A stretch of DNA of 64,000 nt from Leptonema illini DSM 21528 (GTDB lineage: Bacteria > Spirochaetota > Leptospiria > Leptospirales > Leptonemataceae): positions 4,052,115 to 4,116,114 of the forward strand of contig NZ_JH597773.1 in NCBI RefSeq assembly GCF_000243335.1. Reading direction: 5' to 3'. Each line of letters starts with the position of its first letter. Within the stretch, counting starts at the first letter, position 1. This document shows, in pieces, positions 29,237 through 44,635 of the stretch. The notes under the pieces were generated by a model. That model was not told the origin of the DNA and did no database searches. It worked only from the letters and a program-made list of their open reading frames with translations. Both the position numbers and the translations under genes were made by a program.

Positions 29237-30610
29237 CTAACCCAGACCGAAGCGTTGCAGCTTGCGATAGAGCGTGCGTTCTGAGATGCCGAGCAGCGAG
29301 GCCGTGCGATCGCGTTTGCCCGATGCAAACGAAAGATTCTTCTCGATGATGGCCTTCTCGTAATCGTCCATGCTGACGCCCGGTATGATCGTCTCGACGA
29401 GGTTGCGATGTCCGGATGGGGCGCGCAATATCTCTTCGGGAAGATCGGCCTTCGTGAGCACGTCGTCGCGGGCGAGGATAACCATCGCCTCGATGACGTT
29501 GCGAAACTGGCGGATGTTGCCCGGCCAGTCATAGTTCTTGAAAAATCCGAGCAGATCGGGAGCAAGCGTCGTCACGCTTTTTCCGTAACGCTCGTTGAAC
29601 TGGATCACGAAATGATTGAAGAGAAGCGGGATGTCGTCGGCCCTTTCGCGCAGAGGCGGCAGCTTGATCTTGATGACGGCGAGGCGATAATAGAGATCTT
29701 CGCGAAAGCGGCCCGAGTCGACCTCTTTCAGAAGATCTCTATTGGTGGCCGTAACGATGCGAACGTCCACCTCGATCGGCCGGGTCGATCCAAGCCTGGT
29801 GACCGTACGATCTTCAAGCACGCGAAGCAGACGCACCTGACTTTCCAGATCCATCTCGCCGATCTCGTCGAGAAAGATCGTTCCGCCCGAGGCGGCCTCG
29901 AACAGGCCCGCTCGATCGCGGTCGGCGCCGGTAAAGGCCCCGCGGGTAACGCCAAAAAGCTCCGATTCAAGGATGGATTTTGTCAGGGCGCCGCAGTTCA
30001 CCTTGATGAAGGGGCGGGCGGCTCGTGCCGAGTTCTCGTGTAAAAAGCCGGCGACGAGTTCCTTGCCGGTGCCCGACTCGCCTTCGACGAGCACGGTGAC
30101 GTCGGTCGGGGCCACCTGTGAGGCGCGCTCCACCATCTGAAGCAGCGCCGGCGAGTTGCCGATGATCTTCTCGCGTCCGGATAACCCCGATAGCTGCATA
30201 CGCAGCGAACGGTTCTCTTTTTCAAGACGGTAGGACTGTAAATAGCTCTCGATCTTCTTCTGAAGATGAAGAAGATCGATCGGCTTTGTCAGGTAATCCG
30301 AGGCGCCTGTCTGTAAAGCCTCGACGGCCGACTCGATTTCGGGCTGGCCTGTAAGAAAGATAAAAGGCAGGTCGGGATTCTGTTCACGCACATAGCGCAG
30401 ATAGTCGATGCCCGTTCCGTCGGGCAGCTTCAGGTCAGAGAGAACGATGGCGATCTCTGGAGACCTCGCCGCATAACTCTGCATCGCCTCTTTTACGCTT
30501 CCGTTTTCGAGTACGCGCACCTTTTCGCGGCCGCTGAGCGTCGTTTCCACGAACTCTTTCAGGGCGTCGCGCTGGACGGGATCATCTTCTATAAGCTGGA
30601 TCAGAATCAT
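29237..30610 (-). CDS. sigma-54-dependent NtrC-type response regulator
   Basis: The product is 457 residues. It has a receiver domain with phospho-acceptor D59 (VLSDLKLPDG), AAA+ domain Walker A GESGTGKE (177-184), the sigma-54-contact loop GAFTGA (224-229), FLDEIGEMDL, and a Fis-type helix-turn-helix (DRTASLLGISERTLYRKLQ) at the C-terminus. It activates sigma-54 promoters after phosphorylation by the upstream kinase. Candidate sigma-54 promoters in this window lie before lpxC and the gene at 43163-44296. All key motifs are intact. Confidence 0.94.
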   Translation of the reverse strand: MILIQLIEDDPVQRDALKEFVETTLSGREKVRVLENGSVKEAMQSYAARSPEIAIVLSDLKLPDGTGIDYLRYVREQNPDLPFIFLTGQPEIESAVEALQTGASDYLTKPIDLLHLQKKIESYLQSYRLEKENRSLRMQLSGLSGREKIIGNSPALLQMVERASQVAPTDVTVLVEGESGTGKELVAGFLHENSARAARPFIKVNCGALTKSILESELFGVTRGAFTGADRDRAGLFEAASGGTIFLDEIGEMDLESQVRLLRVLEDRTVTRLGSTRPIEVDVRIVTATNRDLLKEVDSGRFREDLYYRLAVIKIKLPPLRERADDIPLLFNHFVIQFNERYGKSVTTLAPDLLGFFKNYDWPGNIRQFRNVIEAMVILARDDVLTKADLPEEILRAPSGHRNLVETIIPGVSMDDYEKAIIEKNLSFASGKRDRTASLLGISERTLYRKLQRFGLG

Positions 30611-30657
30611 AGCTGTATCTTTTGGGTATTATTCAGAAGCCATTCTTGAGATGCGTC

Positions 30658-31407
30658 TTAAACGGCCTCATGGCCCTGGATCTCTGCGGGCTCGGGTAAC
30701 GCCTTTACTGCGCCGTCAAAATAAAGCGTGAACCTCGTTCCTTTGCCCGGCGACGAAACAAGATCGACGTGACCGCCCATCTCCATCATCATCTTGCGCA
30801 CAAGAGAAAGACCGAGCCCGCTGCCGTGCACCTTCGTCGTGAAGAAAGGCTCGAAGATCTTCTCGCGATCCTCGGGCAGGATGCCCGCTCCGTTATCTTC
30901 GACTCTCAAGAAGAAGCGTCCGTTCTCTGTGCCCGTCGTGACGACGATGAGTCGGTCGCGATTGTCGTCGACCGTTTCGTAGGCCTGTATCGAATTCAGG
31001 ATCAGGTTCACAAGCGTCTGCTTTAAAAACGAAGCGTCCATCTGCAGATGATCGGGCACGGCGCCCGTATTCGTTTCGAGTCGAATCTGATTTCGCCCGG
31101 CCTGCGGACCGAGCAGCTGTACGACCTGTTCGACGATCTCGTTCAACCCGGCGGCAGCGATGGCGCGGGTCTCGGAGCGAATGAGGCGGATGAACTCCTG
31201 CAACGTCTGATTCAATCCGAGGATCTCACGCTTGATGATCTCGACGCGCCGTTTCATCTGGGCGCGCAGCTCTTCATCCTCCACCTGAAGCACCTGATTC
31301 TCAAGCAGCTGCAGATGCAGATGGATGGCCGACAGCGGATTCTTAACCTCGTGCACCAGGCCGGCGGCGAGGACCGGAAGTGTGAACGGTTCTTGCGAAT
31401 CATTCAT
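30658..31407 (-). CDS. NtrB-like cytosolic histidine kinase
   Basis: The product is 249 residues from ATG 31407. The phosphorylated histidine is H19 in LVHEVKNPLSAI. The HATPase domain has NLILNSIQAYE (N box), VEDNGAGILPED (G1), FEPFFTTKVHGSGLGLSLV (F and G2). There is no sensor or membrane domain, so it must take its signal from a partner. Its gene overlaps the vWA gene by 8 nt and precedes the NtrC-type regulator, which is the natural substrate. Confidence 0.92.
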   Translation of the reverse strand: MNDSQEPFTLPVLAAGLVHEVKNPLSAIHLHLQLLENQVLQVEDEELRAQMKRRVEIIKREILGLNQTLQEFIRLIRSETRAIAAAGLNEIVEQVVQLLGPQAGRNQIRLETNTGAVPDHLQMDASFLKQTLVNLILNSIQAYETVDDNRDRLIVVTTGTENGRFFLRVEDNGAGILPEDREKIFEPFFTTKVHGSGLGLSLVRKMMMEMGGHVDLVSSPGKGTRFTLYFDGAVKALPEPAEIQGHEAV

Positions 31408-33007
31408 GGCGATAATCACGCACCTCCACATGAAAAAACCATGCGTCTCGAACGTTCCAGTAAGATCGATTCAGTTTGAGCAGCCTCTCGTATTCAAGTA
31501 AGAAAAGTCGCGGCACTTCGGCATCGGGCAGCATATAGATACGAGCGGGGATGTTCTCAACGCCGCCCGGCGTCGCCTTTAAGTGCAATCCGACGTAGAG
31601 CTTTTCGCCCTTCTTTCTGCTGAGCGCCTGATAGTCCTCTTTGCTATTCAGACCGATCCAGAAGGCGCGGCTGCCGCTCTGCACAAGTACGCGGTACGGA
31701 GCGCGCGCTCCGGTACGGTCGGTAAGAAAATCGGCGATGCGAAACTCAAGGTCGGAGTACACCGGACTGATCTCGCTGATCTTCAGATTGTTGCGGTCGG
31801 CGTAGGCTTGAACGATGCGATCCAGATCGAGCTCGGTCTTTGAATAACGATGTGCGGGAAAGCTCTGACAGCGAGACGTATCGAGCCGGCCCGAGGCGAT
31901 GTCGTCGCCTGAATTGCCCGGACACAGAAAGAAGGCCGATCCCCGGCGTACAAAGAAGCGAGACTCTCCCGATACAAAGCCGCCGCGACGGGCGAAGACG
32001 GGCGTGTAGACGCGAGCGATGCGATCAAAGCGTCCGGTACGATCAAGGAATGCCGGATCGCTGCCATAGCCCGGAAAGAGCGCCACATCGATACCCGCTC
32101 GTTTATAACTGCGAAAGATCTCCTGTAACTGAAGCAGGCCTTTCTCAGAGAATGTAGCATCCGATAAAAAAAGCATGCGTGTCGTTCCCGGCTTTATATG
32201 ATCCGCAGCGCGACGCAGTCCATCCAGCAAAGAGGCCTCCGTCGTAGCACCCGATCCGTGAAGCGATCGCACGGTTTTCAGATAGGCGGTCTGATCGGCA
32301 AAGGCCTCGGTATGTTCTATGCGCGCCGAGGAACCGATGACGGTGAAGGTAACGGTTTTACCGGGCGAAGGCTCAAGGGCTTCGAGGGCGCGACGGGCAA
32401 AGGGAAGGGTTAACTCCATCGATCCCGACAGATCTACGACAATATGCAGATGGCTATCGCGCATCTCTTCGAAGTTTTGCAAGCGTGCATACGATCGGCT
32501 CTCTGGTAGAAACGGCGTCGCGCGAAAGATGCTTTTGCGCATCAGGCTCTGGATCTCGTTGATATTCCCCGACGAACGATCTTTGTAAAGAATACTGCGG
32601 CGAACACACGATGCGGTGAAGATCTCGACGGTCAGGTCAGATGGCCCGGTGAAAAGAAGCTGTCCGCCAAGCACATGCGAGACGTTTGGATCGCTACAGA
32701 ACGTGCCGAGGCGATTCTCTGCGGCCTGTTCATCAAGCCCCTGCAGGCGATCGGCTCCGGACTCCCTGTAGGGGATGGCCCTGTACTCCCGCAGCAGGCG
32801 ACTCAGAAAAAGGGCGGCCTGCATGGACTGGGCGGGCAGCTCCGACTCGTCGAAGTAGGCGGCCGGCGCCTTGCCCGATACGCGAAACGGCAGAACAAGC
32901 AGGCGATCGGCCCGGGCCGACAGCACGGACGGAACGGTCAAACAGAGCGTCAGAAAGGCCGCCGAAACGGCACGCAGAGACGTGCGCCTGGTCATTGGAG
33001 TTGACAT
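31400..33007 (-). CDS. secreted von Willebrand factor A domain protein
   Basis: The product is 535 residues from ATG 33007. A signal peptide (RAVSAAFLTLCLTVPSVLSARA) starts the chain. The vWA domain holds a metal site: D192-L-S-G-S, a Thr in SGATTEASLLDG and LSDATF. The C-terminal half is beta-rich (KKGEKLYVGLHLKATPGG) without a known family. It is expected in the periplasm or outer membrane. Overlap with the kinase gene suggests it may sense or report an envelope signal. Confidence 0.82.
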   Translation of the reverse strand: MSTPMTRRTSLRAVSAAFLTLCLTVPSVLSARADRLLVLPFRVSGKAPAAYFDESELPAQSMQAALFLSRLLREYRAIPYRESGADRLQGLDEQAAENRLGTFCSDPNVSHVLGGQLLFTGPSDLTVEIFTASCVRRSILYKDRSSGNINEIQSLMRKSIFRATPFLPESRSYARLQNFEEMRDSHLHIVVDLSGSMELTLPFARRALEALEPSPGKTVTFTVIGSSARIEHTEAFADQTAYLKTVRSLHGSGATTEASLLDGLRRAADHIKPGTTRMLFLSDATFSEKGLLQLQEIFRSYKRAGIDVALFPGYGSDPAFLDRTGRFDRIARVYTPVFARRGGFVSGESRFFVRRGSAFFLCPGNSGDDIASGRLDTSRCQSFPAHRYSKTELDLDRIVQAYADRNNLKISEISPVYSDLEFRIADFLTDRTGARAPYRVLVQSGSRAFWIGLNSKEDYQALSRKKGEKLYVGLHLKATPGGVENIPARIYMLPDAEVPRLFLLEYERLLKLNRSYWNVRDAWFFHVEVRDYRHE

Positions 33008-38593: not shown

Positions 38594-39541
38594 TCAGTTG
38601 CGGCGGCCTGCGAGCTCATCACCGGAAAGGTTGGCGATGATGTTACGGCCAAGCGCCACATCAAGGGCATGTCCGGCACGGAAGGCGATGATATGAGCCA
38701 TAAGCGGACGACCGAGCAGGTAGAGGTCACCGATCAGATCGAGCACCTTATGGCGCAGACATTCATCGGGATAACGCAGATCGTCGTTCAGGTAACCGGT
38801 ATCCGTGAGCACCACGGCGTTTTCCAGAGAGGCGCCCATGCCCAGACCACGCTTACGAAGCTCTTCAACATCTTTCAGGAATCCGAAGGTGCGGGCTTCG
38901 AGGATTTCCTGCTCCATGATTTCGCTGTTCAGCAGGCCGTGGTAGGTCTTGCCTTTCAGTTCGGGATGCGGGAAGTCGATGGTATAGGTGACACGGAAGT
39001 CGTCGGCGGGGATGGCAACGAGGTATTTGTCGTCTTTAACGACCCAGACCGGTGCGCTGAGGCGGATGGGCTCGACGGCAACATCAGATTCCTGCACGCC
39101 GGCAGCCATGATGCCACGATAGAGCTCGCCGGCAGCGCCGTCGAGGATGGGAATCTCTGTTCCGTCAAGTTCAAGGATGGCGTCGGTGATACCGGCTACG
39201 GCCATGGCGCAGAGAACATGCTCTACGGTATGAACCTTCCAGGAGCCGTTTGAGAGGGTGACGGCCTGTGCCGTTTCTGTTACACTGAGTGGTGAGATGG
39301 GGATGATGCCGAGAGAAGGAGAGGTGCTCTGTAAGATGAGGCCTGTGCCGGGAGCTGCGGGATGAATGCGAAGCGTCGTTGCGCCTGCCGTATGGATGCC
39401 CGTTCCCGTAAAGCTAACCGTTTCGGCCACCGTGCAGCGATTCTGACGACCGATACGGTTCGCAGGCAGTTCAAGTGCCGGCGCCATCAGCGCAGATGAA
39501 GTGGTTGAAACGGACTCATTGCTCAGCGTTTGCATATTCAT
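38594..39541 (-). CDS. lpxC: UDP-3-O-acyl-N-acetylglucosamine deacetylase
   Basis: The zinc enzyme catalyses the committed step of lipid A synthesis. HTVEHVLCAM (H104, H108), CLRHKVLDLIGDL and AGHALDVAL supply the metal ligands and catalytic residues; ILDGAAG and FDFPHPEL-type TIDFPHPELKGKTYH are also conserved. The chain of 315 residues has about 33 extra N-terminal residues before RCTVAETVSFTGTGIHT, so a later start at ATG 39487 is possible. A consensus-like sigma-54 promoter sits directly before the gene and a terminator follows. Confidence 0.94.
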   Translation of the reverse strand: MNMQTLSNESVSTTSSALMAPALELPANRIGRQNRCTVAETVSFTGTGIHTAGATTLRIHPAAPGTGLILQSTSPSLGIIPISPLSVTETAQAVTLSNGSWKVHTVEHVLCAMAVAGITDAILELDGTEIPILDGAAGELYRGIMAAGVQESDVAVEPIRLSAPVWVVKDDKYLVAIPADDFRVTYTIDFPHPELKGKTYHGLLNSEIMEQEILEARTFGFLKDVEELRKRGLGMGASLENAVVLTDTGYLNDDLRYPDECLRHKVLDLIGDLYLLGRPLMAHIIAFRAGHALDVALGRNIIANLSGDELAGRRN

Positions 39542-39559
39542 GGTTCCTGCGAACTATAG

Positions 39560-39575
39560 TGCAAACCCCGTGCCA
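39560..39575 (-). promoter_or_regulatory. consensus sigma-54 (-24/-12) promoter of lpxC
   Basis: Read toward lpxC, TGGCACG (39575-39569), GGGT, TTGCA (39564-39560) match the sigma-54 consensus TGGCACG-N4-TTGCA, with GG and GC exactly ten bases apart. The predicted start near 39549 leaves about 8 nt before ATG 39541, including AGGAA. Confidence 0.65.
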
Positions 39576-39611
39576 GCCCTCGTTAAATGACATAATTCTG
39601 GCGTTCAACAG

Positions 39612-39638
39612 AAAAAGGCCCTGTACAGGGCCTTTTTT
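39612..39638. terminator. bidirectional rho-independent terminator
   Basis: GGCCCTG (39617-39623) and CAGGGCC (39626-39632) form a perfect stem flanked by AAAAA and TTTTTT, so it can act on both strands. It terminates the gene at 39730-40491 and insulates lpxC. Confidence 0.88.
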
Positions 39639-39729
39639 GACGTTTTCATGACTTCTGGCCCAAACAGGCTGCCGGGCCGGTGTGTGAAAAATACCACAGT
39701 TGTCGCTGTACGGCGACGCAGGGCAATTT

Positions 39730-43162: not shown

Positions 43163-44296
43163 TCAGAAGCTCGTCGAGTAGCCGATCGTGTAGAAATACA
43201 CGAGCTTGGGCAGCTTCTGCGTCGGCGCGTATTCATAGCCATAGCCAGTCGGATTACCGATGGAAGCCGTAACAAGGCTGTTGATATAGGTGTTCGCAAT
43301 GCCGTTGTTCAGCGACGGGTCGACAACAAGGCCGTCACCCAGCGAGGTTTCGCCGAGAAGAGAGACGGCATCACTCTTAGACGAGTCACCTTCGAAGAAT
43401 CTAGTGTCCATACGATAAACGCCTGTCACGCCAATATGGAATCCACCGAGATTCAGAGTGATCGGCAGGTTTGCATTCTTCCATCCTTGAATATTCAGGC
43501 TTGTATCTGTTGCATAGCCAACGCCCGGAACAATGTCCAGAGAGATGTCTTTGCCCATTTCAAGGCTTACCGAATAGGAAAGGTAGTTGTATGTCGATCC
43601 TGAGTATCCTGGAGTTGCAACATCGACGTATGTCGTAAACGACAGGTCGGGTAGAATGGCAGGCGCAAAGCCGGCGAACATTTCGATGTTCGAGGCCGTA
43701 TGCTGCGAGATGTTCGTATAGTTATACGAAACGATGCCGCCCGTTAACGCTCCAAGTTTCGAATCCGTGGAATAGCTGAGCGTAACGTCGATCTCGTCGT
43801 TTCGCTTCAGACCGTTCTGCTCTTTGTAGAAACCGGGAGCAACAGAGGGATCACGAATGATATCCGCCATACCGGCCATGTCGGTTGTGTCAATTGTGGC
43901 CAGGTCAATGTTGCCGGCTGCAAGCTGCGCAAGATAGCTTGTTGCAACGGAAGAGGTTGTATCGCCGGCGCCCAGCTGAAGCAGCCCATCGATATCGACG
44001 TCGTTGCGTCCGGTCAGAGCGAACGAGCCCCAGATGTTCAGAGACCAGCCTTCTGCAAAGTTGAAGGTCAGGCTGGGCTGGAAGGCCGGAGCCGTGTTAA
44101 AGCTGCCGTAGGACTTGCCGTCCTGCTCGAATTTTTTCGAATGCACGTCTACGCCACGGAATACGTAGTTTGAGACCACATCCGCTGTGAAGTCGATGCC
44201 AGGTTCGAAGGTCTGTGCTTGCAGCGAGCCTGCAGCAAAGAGAGCTCCGGTGAGTCCGGCTGTGAGGCCGAGACGTTTTGTGATTATGGATTTCAA
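43163..44296 (-). CDS. outer-membrane beta-barrel protein, Gcw_chp-like
   Basis: The product is 377 residues from TTG 44296. This start was chosen because AGGAGG sits six bases upstream and the chain then begins with a signal peptide (KRLGLTAGLTGALFAAGSLQAQ). FTADVVSNYVFRGVDVHS recalls the TIGR02001 (Gcw_chp) family, followed by many amphipathic strands (LDFTTYVDV-like, LDIVPGVGYATD). The C-terminus YTIGYSTSF ends in Phe, as in outer-membrane barrels. A sigma-54 promoter candidate lies 37 nt upstream. It may be a porin; the substrate is unknown. Confidence 0.75.
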   Translation of the reverse strand: MKSIITKRLGLTAGLTGALFAAGSLQAQTFEPGIDFTADVVSNYVFRGVDVHSKKFEQDGKSYGSFNTAPAFQPSLTFNFAEGWSLNIWGSFALTGRNDVDIDGLLQLGAGDTTSSVATSYLAQLAAGNIDLATIDTTDMAGMADIIRDPSVAPGFYKEQNGLKRNDEIDVTLSYSTDSKLGALTGGIVSYNYTNISQHTASNIEMFAGFAPAILPDLSFTTYVDVATPGYSGSTYNYLSYSVSLEMGKDISLDIVPGVGYATDTSLNIQGWKNANLPITLNLGGFHIGVTGVYRMDTRFFEGDSSKSDAVSLLGETSLGDGLVVDPSLNNGIANTYINSLVTASIGNPTGYGYEYAPTQKLPKLVYFYTIGYSTSF

Positions 44297-44332
44297 AGTT
44301 TGCCTCCTGGAAAATCCTGTTGTAACAGCATA

Positions 44333-44348
44333 TGCATGAGTCGTGCCA
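44333..44348 (-). promoter_or_regulatory. candidate sigma-54 promoter of the Gcw_chp-like barrel gene
   Basis: Read leftward, TGGCACG (44348-44342), ACTC, ATGCA (44337-44333) has one mismatch to TGGCACG-N4-TTGCA and an exact GG-N10-GC spacing. The predicted start near 44322 gives a 26-nt leader with AGGAGG and the TTG start. Confidence 0.55.
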
Positions 44349-44635
44349 GGGCCTTCCCCGGTGCGACGATTGCGAATTGCGTAAAAAATGTGCTTCTTGC
44401 CCTTCTCGGGCCGGCCCCCTTTATTTTCTTGCTTCCTTACTGCCATAGTGCCTAAAATTTAGGCTCAGGTTGTCTTCTGGCAGGATCTCTCGATCTGAAA
44501 ACGGCGACAACCCGAAAGCAAATGCCCTGATGGCATGAGTTGGGACGAGAAAAATACCATGTTCTGTTTGATTTTCCCGGGACGCCGTTCGATCCTGTAA
44601 TGGTAGATAGCGGCACTTGCAGATGAGGCAAATGA
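44349..44635. other. intergenic region before the DUF1577-like gene
   Basis: The gap between the two divergent starts is about 340 nt. A perfect inverted repeat CCTAAA-A-TTTAGG (44451-44463) lies about 100 nt upstream of the sigma-54 box, a common distance for an activator site. A short ATTGCGA/ATTGCG direct repeat is also present. No gene is seen; an open frame running leftward through the gap is only the upstream extension of the barrel gene frame. Confidence 0.5.

Follow-up and report, generated by a model that had tools for sequence, protein, structure and literature searches.

A conserved sigma-54 box and a candidate enhancer palindrome upstream of lpxC in Leptonema illini and its order

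We consider it likely that lpxC, whose product catalyses the committed step of lipid A (LPS) production, is controlled in Leptonema illini through a sigma-54 box lying directly before it and an activator bound to a palindrome farther upstream, most likely the NtrX-like response regulator EbpB. What is mainly known of LpxC regulation is its proteolysis in E. coli; to our knowledge, little has been mapped of how the gene is controlled at the level of transcription. A conserved sigma-54 promoter that shares its enhancer across genomes would amount to a concrete switch for LPS production in spirochaetes and in several other phyla. On this reading, the orphan regulator EbpB of Leptospira, together with its kinase, would also gain a target. 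Below, the window means the whole stretch of DNA that was analysed, 64 kb in length.

The lpxC promoter region

The lpxC gene (38594..39541, minus strand), encoding UDP-3-O-acyl-N-acetylglucosamine deacetylase, is assigned by Pfam PF03331 (278 bits, E 9.5e-83) and starts at 39541 or 39535. The sigma-54 -24/-12 box TGGCACGGGGTTTGCA (39575-39560, minus strand) reads into lpxC, ends 18 nt before it, and displays the exact GG-N10-GC spacing. It is the single match with zero mismatches to TGGCACN5TTGCW in the 64 kb, and it alone reaches the maximum sigma-54 matrix score in the window, the matrix being written from the published consensus, with a GG-N10-GC core that is invariant regardless. The first-pass annotation had proposed a sigma-54 consensus with this exact spacing before lpxC; the match is perfect, and the case is stronger than first claimed. 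Taken alone, a perfect match to the box is modest evidence. Matches with two mismatches to the box consensus are no more frequent in the window than chance predicts (24 seen vs 24.2 expected from shuffles), so that such matching was dropped as evidence and the weight falls on the perfect match of TGGCACGGGGTTTGCA and on its conservation. The rpoN gene is present in the genome (E 1.4e-55), and a promoter scan found no sigma-70 promoter for lpxC. The second-best sigma-54-like match in the window, TGGCACGACTCATGCA (44333-44348, minus strand), lies within the 43163-44446 ORF near the ORF start, and is therefore a promoter candidate if a downstream start codon is used.

The geometry of the box predicts a transcription start at 39549 (minus strand, uncertain by 1-2 nt), 12 nt past the -12 C, and thus a leader of 8 nt to the ATG at 39541 or of 14 nt to the in-frame ATG at 39535, with a Shine-Dalgarno-like AGGA (39545..39548, minus strand) at the extreme 5' end of the predicted transcript. 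An 8-nt leader had been described as unusual. However, it is ordinary for the group, since the predicted lpxC leaders of most relatives are also short (about 3-16 nt) and most start sites of L. interrogans fall within 0-10 nt of a start codon (PMC5243855). Between the same-strand upstream gene and the lpxC promoter stands a terminator-like hairpin, AAAAAGGCCCTGTACAGGGCCTTTTT (39613..39636, minus strand; -17.7 kcal/mol, z -2.9), which is not listed by a simple terminator scan and is predicted to isolate lpxC from transcription of that gene.

Conservation of the box and of an upstream palindrome

The order sample comprises 30 genomes, 24 of them with lpxC, and no Leptospira proper was recognised among them. 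A sigma-54 box is found just before lpxC in 23 of these 24 genomes, each at P<0.01 against dinucleotide shuffles, and GG-N10-GC is invariant across the 23 boxes, with variable flanks. Conservation of the -24/-12 bases in relatives, named by the first-pass annotation as a test of its proposal, speaks for the box. The single lpxC-bearing genome of the order devoid of it, G010, has also lost the palindrome described below. No convincing box was returned for six lpxC loci belonging to other families of the class, although rpoN was found in nearly all of the genomes concerned.

When the 260 nt preceding each box (23 loci) were searched for palindromic motifs by Gibbs sampling, an 18-bp palindrome emerged, consensus TGTTGYAAAAATRCAACA, which 22 of the 23 lpxC loci carry 80-235 nt upstream of the box; its motif score is 391.6 vs a maximum of 243.9 in shuffled sets. 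Trained on either of the two families, the motif also recovers the sites in the family left out of training (f2, 8/8 loci at P<0.01; f1, 12/15 at P<0.05); it is weaker at some f1 loci and unrecognisable in L006. The only match to this motif in the window is TGTGGTATTTTTCACACA (39681..39698, minus strand; P<1/300 for this site in the cross-validation between families), its centre some 140 nt ahead of the predicted lpxC transcription start. Among the fetched genome-wide pattern hits, those at lpxC are the only ones with a sigma-54 box 80-240 nt downstream of the palindrome. Its distance and symmetry are as in sigma-54 activator sites, and the palindrome is probably the enhancer for the lpxC activator; it was missed in the first-pass annotation, and is, with the order-wide conservation, a new element. 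A further element, ATTATGTC (39589..39596, minus strand), occurs once in the window and in six of the 23 lpxC loci, against 0.16 in shuffles. Usually followed by NCATT, it is present in the window and in L009, L010, L011, L016 and L018, either between the candidate enhancer and the box or near the candidate enhancer. The earlier proposal that lpxC is under sigma-54 is strongly supported by rpoN, the order-wide box, the palindrome, the hairpin predicted to isolate the gene, and the outcome of the sigma-70 promoter scan.

Candidate activators and alternative readings

In the proposed mechanism, sigma-54 RNA polymerase would transcribe lpxC from the box at 39560-39575, while a phosphorylated hexameric activator on the palindrome at 39681-39698 would loop to the promoter and open it. 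The activator would most likely be EbpB, NtrX-like and paired with a putatively NtrY-like membrane kinase from the rpoN cluster, and LPS output would probably be switched by a two-component signal. EbpB is a REC-AAA-HTH response regulator of about 447 aa, in which Pfam identifies REC, sigma-54 AAA+ and Fis-type HTH domains, and the GAFTGA loop is present. Its gene sits elsewhere on the chromosome in an rpoN-hpf-hprK-kinase-ebpB cluster, whose second and third members we take by eye from sequence to be hpf and hprK. The top NCBIfam match of EbpB is NtrX, at 468 bits vs an equivalog cut-off of 600 (NF051870), and the protein is therefore called NtrX-like rather than NtrX; its top PDB match is a nitrogen assimilation regulatory protein (5m7n). 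The adjoining kinase exhibits a HAMP-HisKA-HATPase organization and belongs to the LIC_11548 family (NCBIfam HK_LIC11548), NtrY not being among its listed matches. Every box-bearing genome with fetched activators, in both families, carries an EbpB-type gene, and no such gene was detected in G010 or in the outgroup families. Within the order, covariation between half-site variants and the recognition helix of EbpB was uninformative, the helix being nearly invariant.

EbpB appears to be the best candidate because G022, which keeps box and palindrome, possesses only EbpA- and EbpB-type activators, and because its amtB, an EbpA target in L. interrogans, is devoid of such a palindrome. EbpA, a class-wide protein of about 700 aa with two GAF domains (GAF-GAF-AAA-HTH), would itself activate lpxC via sigma-54 and the palindrome in an alternative that we hold to be unlikely, though it is the strongest of those considered. 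Its genes are found in every family examined, including the two-activator G022, and saprophytic Leptospira are reported to be without EbpB and to carry EbpA only (PMC12655853), which counts against the EbpB reading. However, EbpA is present also in families f3-f5, where box and palindrome are missing; the amtB genes examined in the window's genome (G000) and in G022 each carry a sigma-54 box and no lpxC-type palindrome, amtB being dependent on EbpA in L. interrogans (PMC12655853); and in other phyla the box is accompanied by NtrX-like regulators. The boxes before amtB in these two genomes (L209 and L219) are good, in line with nitrogen control by EbpA, and a search for a separate amtB palindrome for EbpA returned nothing clearly above shuffled sets. 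The NtrC-type response regulator of the window (29237..30610, minus strand; kinase 30658-31431), cited in the first-pass annotation as a possible activator, is a poorer candidate still. Its gene is some 8 kb away from lpxC, and in G001, G006, G011, G013 and G019 a relative is found 9-15 kb from lpxC, but this type occurs in f1 only, is not found in G022, and is the single activator of G010, from which box and palindrome have both been lost; its recognition helix, SERTLYRK, also differs. This phyletic pattern makes it very improbable that it is the lpxC activator. In several genera of the family, the kinase and regulator pair (29237-31431, minus strand) keeps synteny with lpxC, and the regulator is the last activator left in the reduced genome G010.

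Other alternatives bear on the promoter itself. A sigma-70 promoter at TATAGT (39553-39558) could join or bypass the box and express lpxC constitutively. This hexamer fits 5/6 of the -10 consensus, a similar TATAG is seen in several f1 relatives, and viability without rpoN would demand basal lpxC expression. Genetic work on sigma-54 in L. biflexa (PMC12655853) suggests that the factor is dispensable there, so that the essential lpxC cannot depend on sigma-54 alone everywhere. Yet TATAGT has no -35 partner, f2 relatives keep GG-N10-GC and not TATAG, and sigma-54 promoters are expected anyway to be AT-rich where they melt; we give this alternative little credence. Finally, that the lpxC box is a chance match, for which the chance-level two-mismatch matches might speak, is refuted by its conservation across the order together with the paired palindrome, and its probability is negligible. 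Activation through the sigma-54 box by EbpB, bound to the palindrome, would best account for the data.

Other phyla and known systems

In the loci sampled from other phyla (L037-L111), a strong box lies within 260 nt of lpxC for 26 of 73 lpxC genes vs 4 of 594 other genes from the same loci (Fisher P 2e-23, a value that overstates the case as the loci, including several Corallococcus and Nitrospira, are not independent). Box-bearing lpxC genes belong to Myxococcota, Nitrospirota, Desulfobacterota, Bdellovibrionota, Rokubacteria and one Acidobacterium; the sampled Chlamydiae, Omnitrophota, Verrucomicrobia and Aminicenantes are without a strong lpxC box. The palindrome precedes several of these foreign lpxC genes, as TGTTGCAAAAATACAACA in Desulfobacterales L082 and TGTTGTTTAAATACAACA in Nitrospirota L086, and an independent search of Nitrospirota rediscovered it; the box and palindrome pair is thus found before lpxC in Nitrospirota and Desulfobacterota. 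Many box-bearing non-spirochaete genomes encode a kinase-adjoining NtrX-like regulator whose score is well apart from those of their other activators. These regulators exhibit the recognition helix ER[ST]HLHRK, nearly that of EbpB, and group with EbpB at 97/89 support. A motif search within the sampled loci of other phyla returned no regulator genes beside lpxC. It is conceivable, at somewhat less than even chances, that a dedicated lpxC circuit comprising an NtrX-like two-component system, sigma-54 and the 18-bp enhancer is common to Leptospirales, Nitrospirota, Desulfobacterota and perhaps other diderm phyla, and it may be one of the chief transcriptional controls of LPS synthesis outside the best-studied proteobacteria.

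Sigma-54 control of lpxC is not a wholly new idea. Hu et al. 2017 (via PMC12655853) predicted in silico that lpxC of L. interrogans is preceded by a sigma-54 promoter, which concerns the same gene and promoter type as here and probably the same order; as the review recounts it, this prediction is a list entry from a one-species promoter scan, given no enhancer, activator or conservation. On the same theme, Francke et al. 2011 (PMC3162934) described sigma-54 as a controller of the bacterial exterior, with a general link to LPS and the envelope, in a main text that does not include lpxC. What would be new here are the order-wide conservation, the candidate enhancer, the evidence against the window's NtrC-type regulator, and the pattern across phyla, which points to NtrX-like regulators. 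The response regulator DVU2934 of Desulfovibrio vulgaris, whose single target is lpxC (PMC3333781, PMC4641369), is likewise of the sigma-54 type (GAFTGA) and binds upstream of the gene, but its motif is found at lpxC in close relatives only. In Rhodobacter and Caulobacter, NtrYX, also an NtrX-family two-component system that alters the lpxC transcript level, lowers it, apparently indirectly (PMC7240162, PMC12444477), no NtrX site having been found at R. sphaeroides lpxC, whereas direct activation via sigma-54 is proposed for Leptonema.
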